Positions 6,628-57,941 of a stretch of 64,000 nt of DNA are shown here, piece after piece. Position 1 is the first letter of the stretch. Every line of letters begins with the position of its first letter. The position numbers and the translations under genes are program-made. Location of the stretch: positions 242,862 to 306,861 of the forward strand of contig NZ_KB893650.1 in assembly GCF_000374105.1 (NCBI RefSeq), written 5' to 3'. The notes below the pieces were generated by a model that did no database searches, had not been told where the DNA came from, and worked only from the letters and a program-made list of their open reading frames with translations. The DNA is from Kangiella aquimarina DSM 16071 (GTDB lineage: Bacteria; Pseudomonadota; Gammaproteobacteria; Enterobacterales; Kangiellaceae).

Positions 6628-7581
6628 ATGCGCGCAGTGTTTCTTGATGCCGATACTCTGGGTCAATGGCAAGACAACGAAAAGCAAAAAGCCAAAGTAG
6701 ATTTAACGCCGCTGACCAGCTGTTTTGACGACTGCAAACTGTATGGACTAACCAGCCCCGAGCAACGTCTTGAGCGTTGTCAGGATGCCGATGTCATTAT
6801 CACCAACAAGGTAGTCATTGATCGAGAGTTAATCGAGCAGTTGCCCAACCTCAAAGCCATTCAATTAGCCGCTACCGGCATGAACAATATCGATCTGGAA
6901 GCAGCCAAAGAAAAAGGTATTCAATGCTTTAATGTCGCCGACTACTCAACCTTTGCCGTCGCGCAGTTAACCATGCAGTTTATTTTAAATTTCGCCACCC
7001 GCGCCAGTGATCACTTTAATCTGACTCGCCAAGGTGCGTGGCAGGAAAGCCGCATGTTTACCTTAACCGACTTCCCGACCATGGAAGTCGCAGACAAGAC
7101 ATTAGTCTTGGTTGGCTATGGCAACATTGCGCAACAAGTTGAAGCGTTAGCCAAAGCATTCGGTATGCGCGTTCTCATCGCCAATATTCCAGGTCGGCCT
7201 ATGCGCGATAATCAGGTGCCATTACACACAGCACTACCACAAGCCAATTTTGTATCGATTCACTGTCCATTGACTAAAGAAACGAAAGAGCTGGTCAACA
7301 AAGACTTTATTGACCTCATGAAAACCGGCAGTTTTATTATCAACACCGCACGCGGCCCCATCATCAATGAGCAACACCTGGCCGATGCACTCAAAAACGG
7401 AAAAATCGGCGGAGCCGGCCTCGACGTTTTATCCGTCGAGCCACCCAGTCCTGACAATCCATTGTTGCAAGATGATGTACCCAACACCTACATCACACCC
7501 CATATCGCCTGGGCCAGCCACGAAGCAAAAATCCGATTGATAGAAGGCATGGCTGAGAATATGGAAGGATTGTTGGAGTGA
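6628..7581 (+). CDS. D-2-hydroxyacid dehydrogenase (glycerate/hydroxypyruvate reductase type)
   Basis: This is a 317-residue NAD(P)-dependent dehydrogenase that interconverts a D-2-hydroxyacid and its 2-keto acid. The Rossmann motif GYGNIAQQV, the catalytic Arg in NTARGP, the Glu in LSVEPP and the His in TPHIAWAS are all in place. The overall sequence, including ADYSTFAVAQLTM and LDVLSVEPP, is most like HprA-type glycerate dehydrogenases. A good ribosome site (AGGAA) precedes the ATG. It follows the hydratase-like lipoprotein gene and may share its transcript. The exact substrate cannot be read from sequence. Confidence 0.88.
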   Translation: MRAVFLDADTLGQWQDNEKQKAKVDLTPLTSCFDDCKLYGLTSPEQRLERCQDADVIITNKVVIDRELIEQLPNLKAIQLAATGMNNIDLEAAKEKGIQCFNVADYSTFAVAQLTMQFILNFATRASDHFNLTRQGAWQESRMFTLTDFPTMEVADKTLVLVGYGNIAQQVEALAKAFGMRVLIANIPGRPMRDNQVPLHTALPQANFVSIHCPLTKETKELVNKDFIDLMKTGSFIINTARGPIINEQHLADALKNGKIGGAGLDVLSVEPPSPDNPLLQDDVPNTYITPHIAWASHEAKIRLIEGMAENMEGLLE

Positions 7582-7665: not shown

Positions 7666-7696
7666 GCTCTTATTAATTACATTCCTTAATTAATGG

Positions 7697-7917
7697 TTTC
7701 GCCCCTCGGCGAGTTACTTTTCTTGCGTGGTCAAGAAAAGTAACCAAAAGAAGACCACCCCGAGATTGAGGCTTCACTTCGTTCAACTTCCTTCGCTACT
7801 GCCAAAATACTTAACGTACCAGAATTTACATCACATCCTTGTGCTGAAAATTCTTATCAAAATCATCCACGATTTTGATTACTATATTTTGTACGTAACT
7901 CAGCTCAATCTAAGGGG
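7697..7917 (+). repeat. Structured 221-bp element, copy 1
   Basis: First of four intergenic copies (others at 39318-39537, 45369-45589 and 52875-53095). Stems in order: CGCC-CCTC-GGCG at the left end; ACTTTTCTTG/CAAGAAAAGT with loop CGTGGT; loop GTGGTC pairing with GACCAC downstream; CACA-TCCT-TGTG; and ATCAAAATC/GATTTTGAT (7856-7879). It ends with CTCAGCTCAAT and GGGG. An open frame across part of it is not preserved in the other copies, so it is treated as non-coding. It lies between two convergent genes. Confidence 0.85.
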
Positions 7918-7948
7918 AATATTGGTGCAAATCTGAAATTTATCATTT

Positions 7949-19825: not shown

Positions 19826-19872
19826 AGAGTCCCTCCTTTCTTAGAATTATATGAATTTACACCCAGTTATAG

Positions 19873-20015
19873 ATTCCCGCCTTCGCGGGAATGACGTGTC
19901 GGAGAATATAATGCTGTAGTTTACTTCTTTCTTACTCTTCAACTAACGAAAACTCTAATGCATAACCCTCTTAAGCAACCACGCAAGCTTGTCATTCCCG
20001 CGTAGGCGGGAATCC
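19873..20015. repeat. Bipartite inverted-repeat element, 143 bp
   Basis: A CATTCCCGCG-type palindrome in reverse orientation (19873-19895) and another in forward orientation (19991-20015) bound about 95 bp of AT-rich DNA. The same layout, with matching edge sequence (TGTCGG on the inner left, AAGCTTGTCATT on the right), is seen at 27732-27880. This looks like a miniature inverted-repeat mobile element. No coding capacity is seen inside. Confidence 0.75.
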
Positions 20016-27602: not shown

Positions 27603-27731
27603 TTGGGTGATTGATTCTAAACAAGTACCTGGATCACCTAGTCGATGGCTCGTTTAACCAAATATCGTCAGAGACAGACAAGATCGAAAATCATACTTCA
27701 CCGGATACTTCTGTAATAATAGCAACTTTTT

Positions 27732-27880
27732 ATGGATTCCCGCCTTCGCGGGAATGACATGTCGGTGAAGATATTGCTCTGCGTTTACTTTGGTAATACT
27801 TAACGAGATGAAGACTATAAATGTAACCGAGAGATGAACTAACTAATAAGCTTGTCATTCCCGCGTAGGCGGGAATCTAT
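27732..27880. repeat. Bipartite inverted-repeat element, 149 bp
   Basis: Same organisation as 19873-20015: a reverse-oriented CATTCCCGCG palindrome at 27732-27758 and a forward one at 27854-27880. Matching edge sequences are present but the middle is different. It lies 35 bases from the GIY-YIG gene stop. Confidence 0.75.
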
Positions 27881-35877: not shown

Positions 35878-38430
35878 ATGTCGATTTCATCTTCTTTAAA
35901 AAACCTGACTGTTTCACTGTTACGCCTACCATTAAAATTATTGGTTCGTGAGCAGGGTGCGCCATCTGATCCTAAAAAAGAATTCGAACTTAATAATGAT
36001 GATCACATTATTTATGTGCTAAGAACTCAGTCGATGACTGCGATAGAACTGCTTCGCCGCCAGGCTTCGCAGCTAGAACTGCCTTCCGCTCGTGCGACCG
36101 ATAAAAAGCTGGCGGTTCCTGAGTCCGGCAGTTGTTTATTCTTGAATACTCGCCCAGGTATTATTCGCCGCAGTAAAGTCAATGCTGCCCATAAGCAGTC
36201 GCTGTCCAAACTGGTGCAAGCACAACAGGCTAATCCCGATAAATCTTATAAGCTCGTTCCTGTGTCTATTTACTGGGGACGAAATCCGGGAAAAGAAAAA
36301 TCTTTCCTGCGCTATTTCATGTCTAACGTTGAACAGTCAGGCCGTATCGCAAAGTTTTTTATCATGCTGTTTCTTGGCCGCCAATGTCTAGTTCAATACG
36401 GCGAGCCCATTGCTCTTAATTCACCTGACGTTAATCTGGACAATCCTGCTGACAAAACAGCACATAAAATAAGCCGTATTCTGCGTGTTCACTTCAACCG
36501 ACAGTGGGTAGCGACCGTCGGGCCACGCACACAAAATCGTCGCGACCTGATTGATGGTATCGTCGCCTCCGATCTCGTGAATCAGGCGGTTGAGCGTGAA
36601 ATCAAGAAAACCGGCAAATCACGTGCTCAAATAGAAAAGCAGGCTGGCAAATATGTTAAAGAAATTGCAGCCAACTTTAGCCCGCGCATGATTCGCTTTT
36701 TGTCGACCACTCTTACTCGATTGTGGAACAAAATTTACGCCGGAATTGAAGTCAATAATCTTAAAGAAGTGCGACAGCTAGCCAAAGATTATGAGCTGGT
36801 TTATGTTCCCTGCCACCGTAGTCATGCTGATTATTTATTACTGTCTTATCAGCTTTACCATGAAGGATTGGTGCCACCTCATATTGCCGCGGGTATAAAC
36901 CTTAACTTCTGGCCGATTGGTTCAGTCCTGCGTCGTGGTGGTGCATTCTTCTTGCGCCGCAGTTTTCGTGGTAACAAACTCTATACTGCGGTTTTCAATG
37001 AATATCTTTACCGTTTGTTCAACAAAGGTATCCCGGTTGAATATTTCCAGGAAGGTGGTCGTAGCCGTACAGGGCGATTGCTAACTCCCAAAACCGGTAT
37101 GCTGGCCATGACCGTGCAAAGTATGTTGCGCGGTGTTCGTCGTCCCATCGTATTTGTGCCTGTTTATATTGGTTACGAGCGTATGTTTGAAGGCAAAAGC
37201 TATGTCGGCGAACTACGCGGCAACGCCAAGAAACAGGAGTCTGTCGGACAATTGCTCGGTGTTCGCAAAGCACTGAAACGATTTTATGGTAAGGTTTATC
37301 TAAATTTTGGCCAGCCCTTGGCGCTTGAAGATTACCTCAAACAGCAACAGATAGACTGGACAGAATTTCAGGGCCAGTCTCAGGCTCGCCCTGACTGGTT
37401 ATCTAATTTCGTAGTTGATCTGGGCGATGAAATTAATCGTCGTATTAATGCCTCCGTCAGTTTAAACAGTGTCTGCCTTGTCAGTTTATCGCTTCTTGCA
37501 ACTCCACGTCTGGCGATGGACAAACATGAGCTGATTGCTCATCTTGATCTTCTAATGACCATCTCCCGTCAGGCTCCTTATAGCGATCACATCAATATCC
37601 CAGAGGAAAGCGGTGAAGAGTTATTAGAAACGGCTCAAAAGCTCGGTATGGTGCAGGAAATAAACGATCCTGCTGGTGATGTAATTTCCATCGAAGGCGA
37701 TGAAGCGATACTGTCTACCTACTACAGCAACAATATCCTCCATGTATTCGCACTTCCGTCTTTAATTGCTTCTATCTTCCAGCGCCACGATGACGTCACT
37801 CATGAACACATCATCAATGCCGTCAAGACTGTCTATCCTTTCCTTCACCAGGAACTCTATGTTCGCTGGGATATTGAAGAGCTGGATCAGCGCGCTGAAC
37901 AACTGATTCAGACCATGCTTGATAACAAACTTTTATTGAAGCGTGGCGATGAGTACGTTCCGGCAGACAGTGAAGCACCACAATGGTCACGTCTGATGTT
38001 GTTGGCACAGGCCGTTCAGCCGGCTCTTCAACGCTATGCAATGAGTTTAACCATTTTGTTCAGTCTTAAACCTGAACAAGTTATTCACCGTGCAGAGCTT
38101 GAGCAGGAAAGCCAGAAGCTGGCACAACGTATTGCAGCGCTTTATGGTATCAATGCACCGGAGTTCTTTGATAAGAACCTGTTTAAAACTCAGGTTAAAG
38201 TTCTAAAGGAACAGGGTTGGGTTGAACACAGAGAAGGCATTGGTATGCGCGCCACTAAAAGCTGCGAAGATCTGTATCAAAGTATTCTGAGCATGCTGAG
38301 TGTTCCTGTTCAGCAAGGTCTGCAGCAGGCTGCTCGTAGTTTACGCCAGCAGGCCCGCGATCAGATTCTTCTTGTCGATGAAAACTCACCCAAACTGGAA
38401 GTGCAGGACGATTCCCAGAAAGAGGACTAA
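35878..38430 (+). CDS. plsB: Glycerol-3-phosphate 1-O-acyltransferase
   Basis: 850-residue inner-membrane acyltransferase that starts phospholipid synthesis by acylating glycerol-3-phosphate; E. coli PlsB has 807. The active-site H-x4-D is in CHRSHADYL, followed by GINLNFWPIGSVLRRGGAFFLRRSF, the acceptor-binding EGGRSRTGR and PIVFVPVYIGYE. It starts 24 bases after the decarboxylase gene. Its 3' end overlaps the convergent ubiA gene by 45 bases. Confidence 0.97.
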   Translation: MSISSSLKNLTVSLLRLPLKLLVREQGAPSDPKKEFELNNDDHIIYVLRTQSMTAIELLRRQASQLELPSARATDKKLAVPESGSCLFLNTRPGIIRRSKVNAAHKQSLSKLVQAQQANPDKSYKLVPVSIYWGRNPGKEKSFLRYFMSNVEQSGRIAKFFIMLFLGRQCLVQYGEPIALNSPDVNLDNPADKTAHKISRILRVHFNRQWVATVGPRTQNRRDLIDGIVASDLVNQAVEREIKKTGKSRAQIEKQAGKYVKEIAANFSPRMIRFLSTTLTRLWNKIYAGIEVNNLKEVRQLAKDYELVYVPCHRSHADYLLLSYQLYHEGLVPPHIAAGINLNFWPIGSVLRRGGAFFLRRSFRGNKLYTAVFNEYLYRLFNKGIPVEYFQEGGRSRTGRLLTPKTGMLAMTVQSMLRGVRRPIVFVPVYIGYERMFEGKSYVGELRGNAKKQESVGQLLGVRKALKRFYGKVYLNFGQPLALEDYLKQQQIDWTEFQGQSQARPDWLSNFVVDLGDEINRRINASVSLNSVCLVSLSLLATPRLAMDKHELIAHLDLLMTISRQAPYSDHINIPEESGEELLETAQKLGMVQEINDPAGDVISIEGDEAILSTYYSNNILHVFALPSLIASIFQRHDDVTHEHIINAVKTVYPFLHQELYVRWDIEELDQRAEQLIQTMLDNKLLLKRGDEYVPADSEAPQWSRLMLLAQAVQPALQRYAMSLTILFSLKPEQVIHRAELEQESQKLAQRIAALYGINAPEFFDKNLFKTQVKVLKEQGWVEHREGIGMRATKSCEDLYQSILSMLSVPVQQGLQQAARSLRQQARDQILLVDENSPKLEVQDDSQKED

Positions 38431-39246
38431 TCCAACATAATTATTATTTAAAAAGGCGTTGAAGCACTCCTGACGATCACGGGTACGACAACGCCACATC
38501 TGGATTGCCACCAGCAACAAAGCTATAACCCAAGCAACGTAATAATAGACTCCAAATTCCAATTGCTCCCCAACCAGATACATTCCAATTAGGAACAACG
38601 CCTGAATAACACCGACCATCACAAGGTCCATCTCACCAAACAATATCGCGGTCGATTTCAATCCAAGGCGCAAGTCATCCTCACGGTCAACCATGCCATA
38701 CAGAGTGTCATACGCGAGAACCCATAACACCGTTGAGGTATAAATGACCCAGACAATCAAAGGTAATTCATCCTGTATTGCTGCAAACGCCATAGGAATT
38801 GACCAGGCAAAAGCAGCGCCCAGAATCACCTGGGGGAAATAGGTATAGCGTTTCATAAAGGGATAACTCGCGGCCAGACCAATAGCAACAAAACTCAAAC
38901 TGACTGCAAACCAATTAAGGGTCAAAGCTAAAGCAAACGCTATTAACACCAGCAGTAAGAACAAACTCATAGCTTCACGCGGCGACACCCTATTTTGCGC
39001 CAGGGGTCTATCCCGAGTCCGCTCCACATGGGCATCAAAATCCCGGTCAGCATAATCATTGATTACACAACCCGCTGATCGCATTAAAAACACACCTAGA
39101 CAGAACACCAACAAAATCCATAAAGGAGGCAAACCCTCCGCCGCAATCCACAACGCCCACAACGTTGGCCACAACAATAAAAAAGTACCAATGGGCTTAT
39201 CCAACCGCATTAATAACGAATACTGACGCCATTTCTCTTTATTCAA
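38386..39246 (-). CDS. ubiA: 4-hydroxybenzoate octaprenyltransferase
   Basis: 286-residue membrane prenyltransferase that attaches the polyprenyl tail to 4-hydroxybenzoate in ubiquinone synthesis. Both Asp-rich motifs are present: NDYADRDFD and YDTLYGMVDREDD. There are eight or nine spans. The 3' end runs into plsB by 45 bases. Its usual operon partner ubiC is 313 bases upstream, the gap being filled by a 220-bp repeat. Confidence 0.97.
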   Translation of the reverse strand: MNKEKWRQYSLLMRLDKPIGTFLLLWPTLWALWIAAEGLPPLWILLVFCLGVFLMRSAGCVINDYADRDFDAHVERTRDRPLAQNRVSPREAMSLFLLLVLIAFALALTLNWFAVSLSFVAIGLAASYPFMKRYTYFPQVILGAAFAWSIPMAFAAIQDELPLIVWVIYTSTVLWVLAYDTLYGMVDREDDLRLGLKSTAILFGEMDLVMVGVIQALFLIGMYLVGEQLEFGVYYYVAWVIALLLVAIQMWRCRTRDRQECFNAFLNNNYVGLVLFLGIVLHFQFG

Positions 39247-39317
39247 ACTTATCCCCTTTTTATAAGTACATAAACCTATAAAATTTTTTCATTCAATTAC
39301 CAGCTTGCCTCGGGCTA

Positions 39318-39537
39318 GCCCATTTGAATTGAGCTAAGGAACTTTTTGGTCATAGTAATTTGAATCTGGACGATTCAAATAGCGAAATTCGGGCCAGGGA
39401 TGGAACGTATTTCGCGGTACGTTATGAACAAACAGTTTTGAAGGTAATCATTCGAAGAATGATCTCAATTCACGGGTGGTCTTCTTTTGGTTACTTTTCT
39501 TGACCACCCAAGAAAAGTAACTCGCCAAAAGGCGAAA
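39318..39537 (-). repeat. Structured 220-bp element, copy 2 (inside the ubiC-ubiA gap)
   Basis: Read on the minus strand: TCGCC-TTTT-GGCGA, ACTTTTCTTG/CAAGAAAAGT with loop GGTGGT, GGTGGTC pairing with GACCACC, a CCA-TCCC-TGG stem and TTTGAATC/GATTCAAA. It also carries ATCATTC-GAA-GAATGAT, a hairpin shared with copy 3. It lies between two genes that are normally adjacent, so it may affect ubiA expression. Confidence 0.85.
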
Positions 39538-39559
39538 TTTATACTGATAAATAATTAAG

Positions 39560-40117
39560 CTACCGATACAAAGGTGCATCCGGCAAAAACACCTCACACA
39601 CCAGCATCCCATCGTCTTTATCTTTCTTCTTCCACAGCGAACGCCTTGCCCACAGCTTTGGCTTCTCGCTATCCACTAACAAGTTTTCATTCTTCAAATA
39701 CCTAATCGCGCTTTTATACAGCTGGCTGGTTTCCTGTAGCTGACATACCTGCAAAAATTGTCTTCTCAGTTCTTCATCGGTAAACAATATGCTGCCCAAT
39801 GGTTTACTGCCAAGCTTCTCAATCAGGTGTTTACTTGTCAGCGGCATACTGGTTCTCGCGTAGATCCAGGGGCTTTGTGGGCCATATAAAACTACTTCTC
39901 GAACCTGACAGGTCACATCACCGCTTACCTTTAAAGCTGATGCCTCTTCGGCTGTTAATATATCAGCACCTTCGCAAAGTACATCGAGCTTAACCTGATC
40001 CACATATCGCGACAGCTTTTCTGTGAGTGAGCCAAATTCTGCCAGCCACTCAGCCACATGAAAAGGCAGCTCTTTTATCGCAGTATCATCGGCATTTTGC
40101 CAGTTATTAAAATTCAT
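39560..40117 (-). CDS. ubiC: Chorismate--pyruvate lyase
   Basis: 185-residue enzyme that splits chorismate to 4-hydroxybenzoate and pyruvate, the first ubiquinone step. Family landmarks are SLTEKL near the start, CQVREVVLYG and the catalytic Arg/Glu regions around PWIYARTSMP and GSKPLGSILF. The gene lies upstream of ubiA as in E. coli but with a repeat inserted between them. Confidence 0.92.
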   Translation of the reverse strand: MNFNNWQNADDTAIKELPFHVAEWLAEFGSLTEKLSRYVDQVKLDVLCEGADILTAEEASALKVSGDVTCQVREVVLYGPQSPWIYARTSMPLTSKHLIEKLGSKPLGSILFTDEELRRQFLQVCQLQETSQLYKSAIRYLKNENLLVDSEKPKLWARRSLWKKKDKDDGMLVCEVFLPDAPLYR

Positions 40118-45318: not shown

Positions 45319-45368
45319 CTCAAATTATGTCAGTTTACTCTGTTATCAACAGCAAGCACATCTTAGAT

Positions 45369-45589
45369 CCCCTTATATTGAGCTGAGGAGTTCTCAAGTT
45401 ATAGCAATCAAAATCGTGGATGATTTTGATAGTAAAATTCAGGCCAAGGAAGGCCTGTATTTTATGGTGCGTTAAGTGGCTTGAGAGCTTCGAAGGCAGT
45501 CATTCGTTGAATGACCTCAATATCGGGGTGGCCTTCTTTTGGTTACTTTTCTTGGCCACGCAAGAAAAGTAACTCGCTGATTAGCGAAA
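45369..45589 (-). repeat. Structured 221-bp element, copy 3 (elaA-tdh gap)
   Basis: Read on the minus strand: TCGCT-AATC-AGCGA; ACTTTTCTTG/CAAGAAAAGT; loop GTGGCC pairing with GGCCAC, a compensatory change from GTGGTC/GACCAC in the other copies. Then come GTCATTC-GTT-GAATGAC, AGGCC-TTCCTT-GGCCT and ATCAAAATC/GATTTTGAT. It ends with CTCAGCTCAAT and a GGGG run. Confidence 0.88.
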
Positions 45590-45654
45590 CATTGGTCAGA
45601 GTTTTACAATCCAATATTCCACTTATAAATCATCACAAAATAAAATTTACCAAT

Positions 45655-52812: not shown

Positions 52813-52874
52813 TCGATTCCTTATAATTTTTCAGGCTTTCTCTCTTAACTGTATCAGCGCATGAAATGTAATTT

Positions 52875-53095
52875 TTTCGCTACTCAGCGAGTTACTTTTC
52901 TTGCATGGTCAAGAAAAGTAACCAAAAGAAGACCACCCCATGATTGAGGTTTCACTTCGTTCAACTTCCTTCGTATCCACCAAGCCACTTCACGCACCGT
53001 AAAATACGTTCCATCCCTGGCCCGAATTTTACTATTCAAAACTTCCTGTTTTGAATTGCTATGTCTTGGCTTCTACTCAGCTCAATCAAAAGGGG
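52875..53095 (+). repeat. Structured 221-bp element, copy 4 (thi cluster)
   Basis: TCGCT-ACTC-AGCGA; ACTTTTCTTG/CAAGAAAAGT; loop TGGTC pairing with GACCA; CCA-TCCC-TGG; ATTCAAAAC/GTTTTGAAT; right end CTACTCAGCTCAATC and GGGG. In sequence it is closest to copy 1 at its left half (shared GAGGTTTCACTTCGTTCAAC-type segment) but different in the inner stems. Confidence 0.88.
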
Positions 53096-53173
53096 TTATT
53101 GGAGCACTCCTGCACGTTTGAACTTATCTACAACAACTTTATAAATCCCATTTACCCGCTAAACAAATGCACC

Positions 53174-54700: not shown

Positions 54701-56635
<1,935 letters not shown>

Positions 56636-56667
56636 CTACATTAGATCAATAGATAGGTTGTGCATTA

Positions 56668-56779
56668 CTCTTCCCTACGCCGATGCGAGTCGGATCAGGT
56701 TATACGGGTTTGCTTGCGCATCTCAGCTCCTGAAATGATGTTGCTATGTAGCAACAACTTCAGGCGCACCCCGAGAGTT
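56668..56779 (-). promoter_or_regulatory. TPP riboswitch (THI element)
   Basis: On the minus strand, CTCGGGGTGC, GAGCTGAGAT, ACCCG, AACCTGATC and GGCGTAGGGAAGAG appear in the consensus order of the thiamine-pyrophosphate aptamer, with a variable P3a hairpin (GTTGTTGCTA/TAGCAACA). It ends about 84 bases before thiC and should repress the thiC-thiO-thiS unit when TPP is plentiful. The later thiG-thiDE unit has no riboswitch visible. Confidence 0.97.
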
Positions 56780-56868
56780 GCTCGAATTATACACATGCTA
56801 AGCCATAAATTCCTAGCCCCTATTTCTCGGTCTTTTTCGCAGTCTTTTCCTTTGTCTTTTTATTCAGA

Positions 56869-57446: not shown

Positions 57447-57915
57447 AATTTTCCTCGTCTGAAATCAAAATGTGTCAACGACCTTATTCGTTGCTCATTT
57501 ACAGACTAGCAAAGAGTGATATTTCAAATTGTTACTTTGAGTGATAGGAATTAACGATAAATCGGTACTTTCAATTAATTTTCGCTATAACCTTAAGTTA
57601 TTGAAATTTAAGGATTATTTTTATAGACGACATTCGACGAGTTTCATTTATATTTATACAACATGCTTTGCATGCCTATTTTATTAACTTAACTTATTGA
57701 TATTAAATGAAATTTAATTTTTTTAATTTTATTTATTTTTTCCTTTTTGGCGGCAAAATGGAATAAAAGGAGAAATTCACTTAACTTGTAGCTAAATGTA
57801 TCCAATATCAGGCAAACTGATGTTAATTACTCATATTTTCTAGCTTTTTCCATTTTGCCTACCGATTTGCAAATTTGTTTAGAATTGGAACTTATTTTAA
57901 TTCCTTTACCTTCCC
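57447..57915. other. AT-rich intergenic region
   Basis: About 470 bases without a gene. Includes a 12-bp inverted repeat GGCAAAATGGAA (57752-57763) and TTCCATTTTGCC (57848-57859) 84 bases apart. Nothing else was recognised. Confidence 0.6.
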
Positions 57916-57941
57916 GTCATTCCCGCGAAAGCGGGAATCCA
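57916..57941 (+). repeat. Solo CATTCCCGCG-type palindrome
   Basis: GTCATTCCCGC-GAAA-GCGGGAATCC, the same unit as at 7639 and in the two bipartite elements. Confidence 0.8.

Follow-up and report, generated by a model that had tools for sequence, protein, structure and literature searches.

The loop of a hairpin that recurs four times in the DNA analysed here (the window, 64,000 nucleotides of the Kangiella aquimarina DSM 16071 genome) pairs with a short segment lying 5' of that hairpin. Our favoured interpretation, which we regard as probable, is that this helix (S1) belongs to an H-type pseudoknot in the 3' domain of a structured mobile element of ~221 nt, whose 5' domain is the TwoAYGGAY RNA; CsrA binding, action at the RNA level and movement are inferred. 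The evidence for the structure is strong, as covariation is observed in S1, in the hairpin stem S2, in helices P0 to P4 and between the linker L1 and S2. A strand bias, a broad range, dispersal in multiple copies and presence or absence at an orthologous site are also observed. New here are the 3' domain together with its covariation and range; the TwoAYGGAY RNA (RF01731) was already known.

Architecture of the repeated element

The window contains four exact matches to the hairpin GGTTACTTTTCTTGRCCAYNCAAGAAAAGTAAC, none being expected by chance, and each lies within a dispersed, intergenic repeat of ~221 nt. The window's genome (2.68 Mb) contains at least 18 copies of this element. The window copies, with their scores against RF01731 and the sites of the exact hairpin match, are as follows.

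7695-7920, minus strand: whole element, copy 7k; 48.6 bits; hairpin at 7713-7745
39317-39539, plus strand: whole element, copy 39k; 48.5 bits; hairpin at 39489-39521
45366-45591, plus strand: whole element, copy 45k; 51.0 bits; hairpin at 45541-45573
52873-53097, minus strand: whole element, copy 52k, with an outer G-U in the P-loop pairing; 42.3 bits; hairpin at 52891-52923

Copy 45k is made up of the following parts.

45369-45382, plus strand: 5' strand of P0, CCCCTTATATTGAG, the element's 5' end; pairs with 45516-45528
45407-45430, plus strand: P2 hairpin, loop GTGGAT (GGA invariant); supported by RF01731 match, invariant columns and covariation
45431-45465, plus strand: P3 hairpin, loop AAGGAA (GGA invariant); supported by RF01731 match, invariant columns and covariation
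45499-45515, plus strand: P4 hairpin, GTCATTC-GTT-GAATGAC; double changes in 6 of 6 consensus pairs
45516-45528, plus strand: 3' strand of P0, CTCAATATCGGGG; supported by invariant columns, covariation and folding
45528-45533, plus strand: P, the 5' strand of S1, GTGGCC, with core TGGC at 45529-45532; pairs with loop 45555-45559
45534-45541, plus strand: linker L1, TTCTTTT plus G, the predicted Hoogsteen third strand; parallel complement of AAGAAAA
45542-45573, plus strand: S2 hairpin, GTTACTTTTCTTG-GCCACG-CAAGAAAAGTAAC; the loop holds P' (GCCA core), purine tract at 45562-45569
45574-45587, plus strand: terminal hairpin TCGCT-GATT-AGCGA, then AA; 97% of cells paired

The segment upstream of P is the TwoAYGGAY RNA. 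Three window copies reach the RF01731 gathering cut-off of 43 bits and the fourth falls short by 0.7 bits; an Rfam scan of the element's 3' half found no family. Helix P0 joins the 5' end of the element to the segment immediately preceding P and is paired at alignment columns 10-17/153-160 in all 46 copies; its variable pairs show double changes. Over the whole element, compensatory changes are present in 31 of the 58 consensus pairs (46 full copies).

Several features of the surroundings were also observed. The motif AGGAATG is conserved ~10 nt past the terminal hairpin in about a quarter to a third of genus copies (L001, L002, L003, L008, L021, L037 and L038), and this site may mark the true 3' end of the element. 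A second short palindromic repeat, TGGATTCCCGC...GCGGGAATGAC, which is dRS3-like, lies at window positions 19867-19915, 27730-27778 and 57899-57941; about half of the genus element copies sit ~35 nt upstream of such a repeat or of its first bases. A TPP riboswitch (RF00059, 63.1 bits) is found at 56655-56783 on the minus strand, upstream of a 627-aa ORF (54701-56584, minus strand).

Covariation, folding strand and range of the loop pairing

The initial annotation had claimed that the hairpin loop pairs with a separate segment, that two bases change together in one copy and that this pattern reflects a selected contact. The pairing is confirmed in all four window copies and far beyond them. In element orientation, P and the loop read GTGGTC and GACCAC in copies 7k and 39k, GTGGTC and GACCAT in copy 52k, and GTGGCC and GGCCAC in copy 45k, which bears out the matched two-base change. 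The four window copies alone supply just one double change; strong support for a selected loop-to-distal contact comes from covariation in sets of 20, 42 and 77 genus copies.

P (GTGGTC or GTGGCC) is separated by 8 nt from the 13-bp hairpin downstream, with whose loop it pairs. Among 20 genus copies, both-sided changes are present at five of the six S1 pairs; the observed score was reached by none of 500 shuffles, and it dropped to about a quarter or less when the whole structure was slid. A MAFFT alignment spanning both stem-length classes displaces P' by a column; pairs were therefore counted in a fixed register, with the last base of P beside the linker and the first base of the loop beside the stem, because the register should not be picked from each copy. 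In this register, 42 distinct genus copies have Watson-Crick pairs in 166 of 168 cells at positions 2-5, with four pair types at position 2; over the first five positions, 195 of 210 cells are paired, as against 161 ± 4 once loops are exchanged among copies of the same stem class and 57-88 in slid registers. A perfect 4-bp core is present in 74 of 77 genus modules and takes 11 kinds (TGTC, TGGT, TGGC, TGGA, TGCC, CGCG, TGCG, CGCC, CGTC, CTGA and CGGC), and the first and last loop bases pair with each other, closing the stem (G-C in 57, A-T in 19 and G-T in 1). Many copies with unmatched loop and partner had been named as the outcome that would refute the contact; such copies are not seen in the genus. 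Orthologous copies at the 39k site in two genomes (G000 and G019) have the 5' domain in common and differ in P, linker (including L1 length), stem and loop, each set being matched to itself. Copies of one family are not independent, and hence the shuffle counts overstate significance.

A G-U pair on one strand is an A-C mismatch on the other, and the bias in these mismatches, therefore, can identify the strand that folds, while Watson-Crick pairs cannot. In the plus orientation of the element, G-U exceeded A-C by 27:4 with a strand-neutral stem finder. At the 58 consensus pairs of the 46 full copies, the excess was 61:5, or 27:5 once a single column, almost invariably U-G, was left out. These counts come from related copies rather than independent events, and their direction is the same in every set. 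The predicted folding energy is -89.1 kcal/mol for the plus strand and -71.9 for the reverse. Copy 52k illustrates the point, as its G-U pair on the folding strand is an A-C mismatch on the strand used by the initial annotation. The folding strand is the reverse complement of that strand, and the pairing is, therefore, between the loop and an upstream segment; the loop-to-distal pairing stands, while the description of the partner as downstream does not. Similarly, the conserved AAAGAAG segment that had been noted is present, and is now recognised as the complement of the linker CUUCUUU and as part of a larger structure.

Outside the genus, a scan for the exact stem (one genome per species, linker not in the pattern) returned at least 120 stretches from Gamma- and Betaproteobacteria, Desulfobacterota, Selenomonadales, Clostridia and Lentisphaerae, some of them metagenome bins whose assignment may be wrong. 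Among the matches listed, nearly all stretches carry the linker, and S1 pairing in distant genera amounts to 237 of 402, against 182 (maximum 209) in exchange controls. The proposed pairing fares less evenly here than in the genus: 44 of 105 copies have perfect cores, and the remaining 61 lack one in the fixed register, several of these pairing one position over and some being unpaired (again among the matches listed). A segment further upstream, GTCTTGC, is a possible partner for the loop in Burkholderia. GGA hairpins precede the pseudoknot stem in single folds from Psychromonas, Xanthomonas, Lysobacter, Thioalkalivibrio and Dyella, and in Psychromonas an RF01731 match (7253-7422, 81.6 bits) ends 3 nt before the hairpin (7425). 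There was no match in the phage records searched; the generic hairpin was present in 14 plasmid records, with an annotated feature under the match in none. A literature search with the hairpin letters returned only chance primer matches. As a separate observation, the Aggregatibacter sRNA AaHKsRNA22 (RF02902; L074:4504-4604, minus strand) ends ~20 nt upstream of a hairpin of the same class on the same strand, a position that hints at transcription; the source study for this sRNA was not found in a literature search.

GGA hairpins, dispersal and inferred mobility

The GGA motif is invariant in both upstream hairpin loops of 46 of 46 copies, with variable flanking letters, which satisfies the RF01731 criterion of two hairpins with AYGGAY-like loops, and GGA outnumbers TCC in upstream hairpin loops by 106:0 in the genus and by 102:9 outside it (among the matches listed). 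With two such loops, the element fulfils the minimum of two GGA hairpin loops for a CsrA-binding RNA. RF01731 and CsrB (RF00018) share Rfam clan CL00106, and CsrA binding has been proposed for TwoAYGGAY by a published motif study (PMC4333381). Binding of a CsrA-like protein by the GGA hairpins is a plausible inference, for which there are no binding data. CsrA genes are present in 20 of 20 genus genomes, including those that are free of the element, and hence the presence of CsrA does not discriminate. In one genus genome, a weak CsrB-like match (L024:48-216, plus strand; 34.6 bits against a cut-off of 71; E 4e-6) lies ~1.2 kb from an element pair, and the RNase P RNA flanks that pair on its far side.

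These observations leave room for a reading in which the element is a CsrA sponge or another regulatory RNA kept for its own function, the pseudoknot being a stabilising 3' end and the multiplication incidental. The invariant loops, the shared clan, the universal CsrA gene and the published proposal all speak for such a role, which we consider possible, if unlikely. The distribution of the element counts against it. The 3' module is present in 17 of 20 Kangiella genomes, with 3-37 copies in 16 and two in one more; no 3' module was found in the other three (G010, G012 and G017). The 45k site is occupied in G000 and G019, while nine relatives have a compact intergenic stretch of 14-77 bp. The intergenic flanks at this site have also changed, and therefore the exact ends and any target duplications are unreadable. 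In addition, copies have mixed orientations relative to neighbouring genes, and the surroundings of copy 45k show no promoter-like site. Copy 39k sits in a gap between minus-strand ORFs 38386-39246 and 39560-40117 and is antisense to both; in other species of the genus, this gap is either short or holds an inverted pair of elements.

Modules less than 1.5 kb apart face outward in 12 of 15 cases and inward in three, and the close pairs listed face outward in 9 of 9. Some pairs enclose a gene. Its product is a 247-aa protein at two genus loci and, in Gallionella, a 232-aa protein containing hydrophobic segments; in Psychromonas (L118:719-5714), the enclosed stretch encodes an NsnA/GmrSD_N protein (190 and 96 bits) together with HEPN_RiboL-PSP. 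The cargo proteins of the genus's own pairs, including the 247-aa protein, have no Pfam or PADLOC match. The Psychromonas arms contain further inverted repeats beyond the pseudoknot. Besides its outward-facing arms, this locus has many degenerate module copies, and its limits are therefore unclear. In Burkholderia, head-to-head pairs (L084:950-1844 and L150:1659-2445) have inverted arms of ~300-330 nt that are 92-94% complementary and overlap the predicted sRNA Bp1_684 (RF02421). Pairing of S1 in trans between the arms of inverted pairs is not supported, as in outward-facing pairs at least 4 bp form with the arm's own loop in 11 of 24 arms and with the other arm's loop in 2 of 24.

It is also conceivable, although we think it rather unlikely, that the structure acts as single-stranded DNA, i.e., as a transposable-element end that folds once one strand is exposed and then serves as the target of a transposase, in the manner of IS200/IS605 or REP/RAYT systems. 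Dispersal in multiple copies, the excess of outward-facing pairs and the long inverted repeats in the Burkholderia pairs would be expected of such an end, and G-T wobble in DNA would give the same strand bias. No candidate enzyme supports this reading, however. Only 7 of 20 genus genomes have a Y1 transposase (PF01797), and its presence does not track copy number; none was found in G013, G018, G001 and G008, which have 20-37 copies, and the element fails the REP/RAYT criterion of a cognate Y1 transposase. Moreover, the GGA-loop hairpins and the membership of the CsrB clan point to RNA, and the two arms of an inverted pair each fold on their own outward strand, so that one strand never carries both. 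A reverse transcriptase was separately rejected as the mobility enzyme; RVT_1 occurs in 2 of 20 genomes without tracking the element, and the test for a retroelement is not met.

We conclude that the fold is likely to act as RNA rather than as single-stranded DNA, in the absence of transcript data. On this basis, the RNA would arise by read-through or by outward transcription and, to judge from the Rfam clan and the motif study, the GGA hairpins would bind CsrA-like proteins. The pseudoknot would shield or mark the 3' end, or be recognised by a mobility enzyme acting in trans, and the solo 221-bp copies and the head-to-head pairs may be forms of one non-autonomous mobile element. Movement of cargo by the element is plausible but not shown.

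A predicted triple helix and comparison with known systems

In the common form, the 3' arm of the stem contains the purine tract AAGAAAA, of which the linker TTCTTTT is the parallel (Hoogsteen) complement. Tract and linker change together: with tract AAAGAAAA the linker is usually TTTCTTTT, with tract AAGAAAAA it is usually TTCTTTTT, and the left arms in G011 and G013 combine AAAAAA with TTTTTT. In 132 of 171 cases, the linker matches its own stem perfectly as a parallel complement, against 87 (maximum 97) after shuffling, and the complement is parallel in 101 of 132 and antiparallel (Watson-Crick) in 22 of 132. Taken together, the parallel complementarity and joint change lead us to predict an H-type pseudoknot with a major-groove triple helix. 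Loop bases that pair outside the hairpin with compensatory changes satisfy the pairing criterion for an H-type pseudoknot, and a third strand that is a parallel complement covarying with the purine strand satisfies the sequence criterion for a pyrimidine-motif triple helix. On the folding strand, the tail would run from P (the 5' strand of S1) through L1 (UUCUUUU), the U-rich 5' strand of S2 and P' in the 6-nt loop to the 3' strand of S2 (AAGAAAA), with S1 abutting S2 and L1 lying in the S2 major groove. The U.A-U and C+.G-C triples, and the physical formation of a triple helix, are inferences from sequence. Two points count against this model: L3 has only 1-2 nt with which to cross the shallow groove of S1, because the loop is of 6 nt, which is tight, and C+.G-C triples require protonation. 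A literature search for a triple helix with a pseudoknot found nothing.

Class IV (pyrimidine-motif) intrastrand triplexes have a Hoogsteen strand, a pyrimidine strand and a purine strand, in that order, on one strand; the study describing them concerns DNA, chiefly BoxC/PIT motifs rich in G/C, and makes no mention of pseudoknots (PMC4666352). The mirror and inverted repeats of the element fit this class, and one could argue that the element is merely a DNA triplex motif (H-DNA or class IV), with the loop pairing as a by-product of repeat amplification. This reading is already disfavoured and in our view very improbable, as S1, which is not part of the triplex, occurs in 11 matched kinds, P0 to P4 covary as well, and there is a strand bias. 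Barely credible is the view, implicit in the initial annotation, that the opposite strand forms the functional pseudoknot, with the hairpin first and the partner downstream; its geometry is classical (a loop 1 of 1 nt and an A-rich loop 3 of 8-9 nt) and Watson-Crick pairs are symmetric between strands, but the G-U/A-C ratios of 61:5 and 27:4 favour the other strand, folding is weaker, and purine-motif triple helices do not form in RNA (PMC4666352).

Our findings add a 3' domain backed by covariation to an Rfam family of unknown function. They also point to a natural bacterial triple-helix pseudoknot whose copies have diverged inside individual genomes, such that folding rules for triple helices and pseudoknots may be read from natural variation. 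If it is true that the paired forms move genes, they would represent an undescribed kind of mobile cassette. A wider proposal, which we advance only tentatively and hold to be doubtful, is that of a bacterial superfamily of mobile noncoding RNAs in several phyla, with a CsrB-like GGA-hairpin domain and a telomerase-like triple-helix pseudoknot, whose head-to-head pairs are the ends of gene-carrying cassettes, some of them anti-phage (NsnA-like GmrSD/HEPN in Psychromonas).

The element shares with TwoAYGGAY (RF01731) two GGA-loop hairpins on a three-way junction, on the same strand. The RF01731 model covers the 5' domain only, without the closing helix P0 beside P, the pseudoknot, the triple helix or the terminal hairpin, and a broad range such as that of the element is not described for it. 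The order of strands is that of class IV triplexes, from which the element differs in having the third helix S1 and an attached structured RNA domain (PMC4666352). REPINs and RAYT systems are likewise intergenic, palindromic, multi-copy and arranged in inverted pairs; the element differs from them in its ~200-nt arms with RNA-like structure and in the lack of a matching Y1 transposase. The pseudoknot of telomerase RNA has the same order (S1, U-rich L1, U-rich 5' strand of S2, 3' strand of S1, purine strand of S2) and U.A-U triples, with C+.G-C triples as in Kluyveromyces lactis. Telomerase RNA differs in having a long A-rich strand where the element has an L3 of 1-2 nt, and there is no telomerase context; the likeness is one of form, and we claim no homology. 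In triple helices of the ENE/MALAT1 type, which also occur in plant transposon RNAs, the major groove of a U-A helix is likewise occupied by a U-rich strand near the 3' end of an RNA, whereas in the element the predicted third strand is supplied in cis inside a pseudoknot, with no poly(A) tail.
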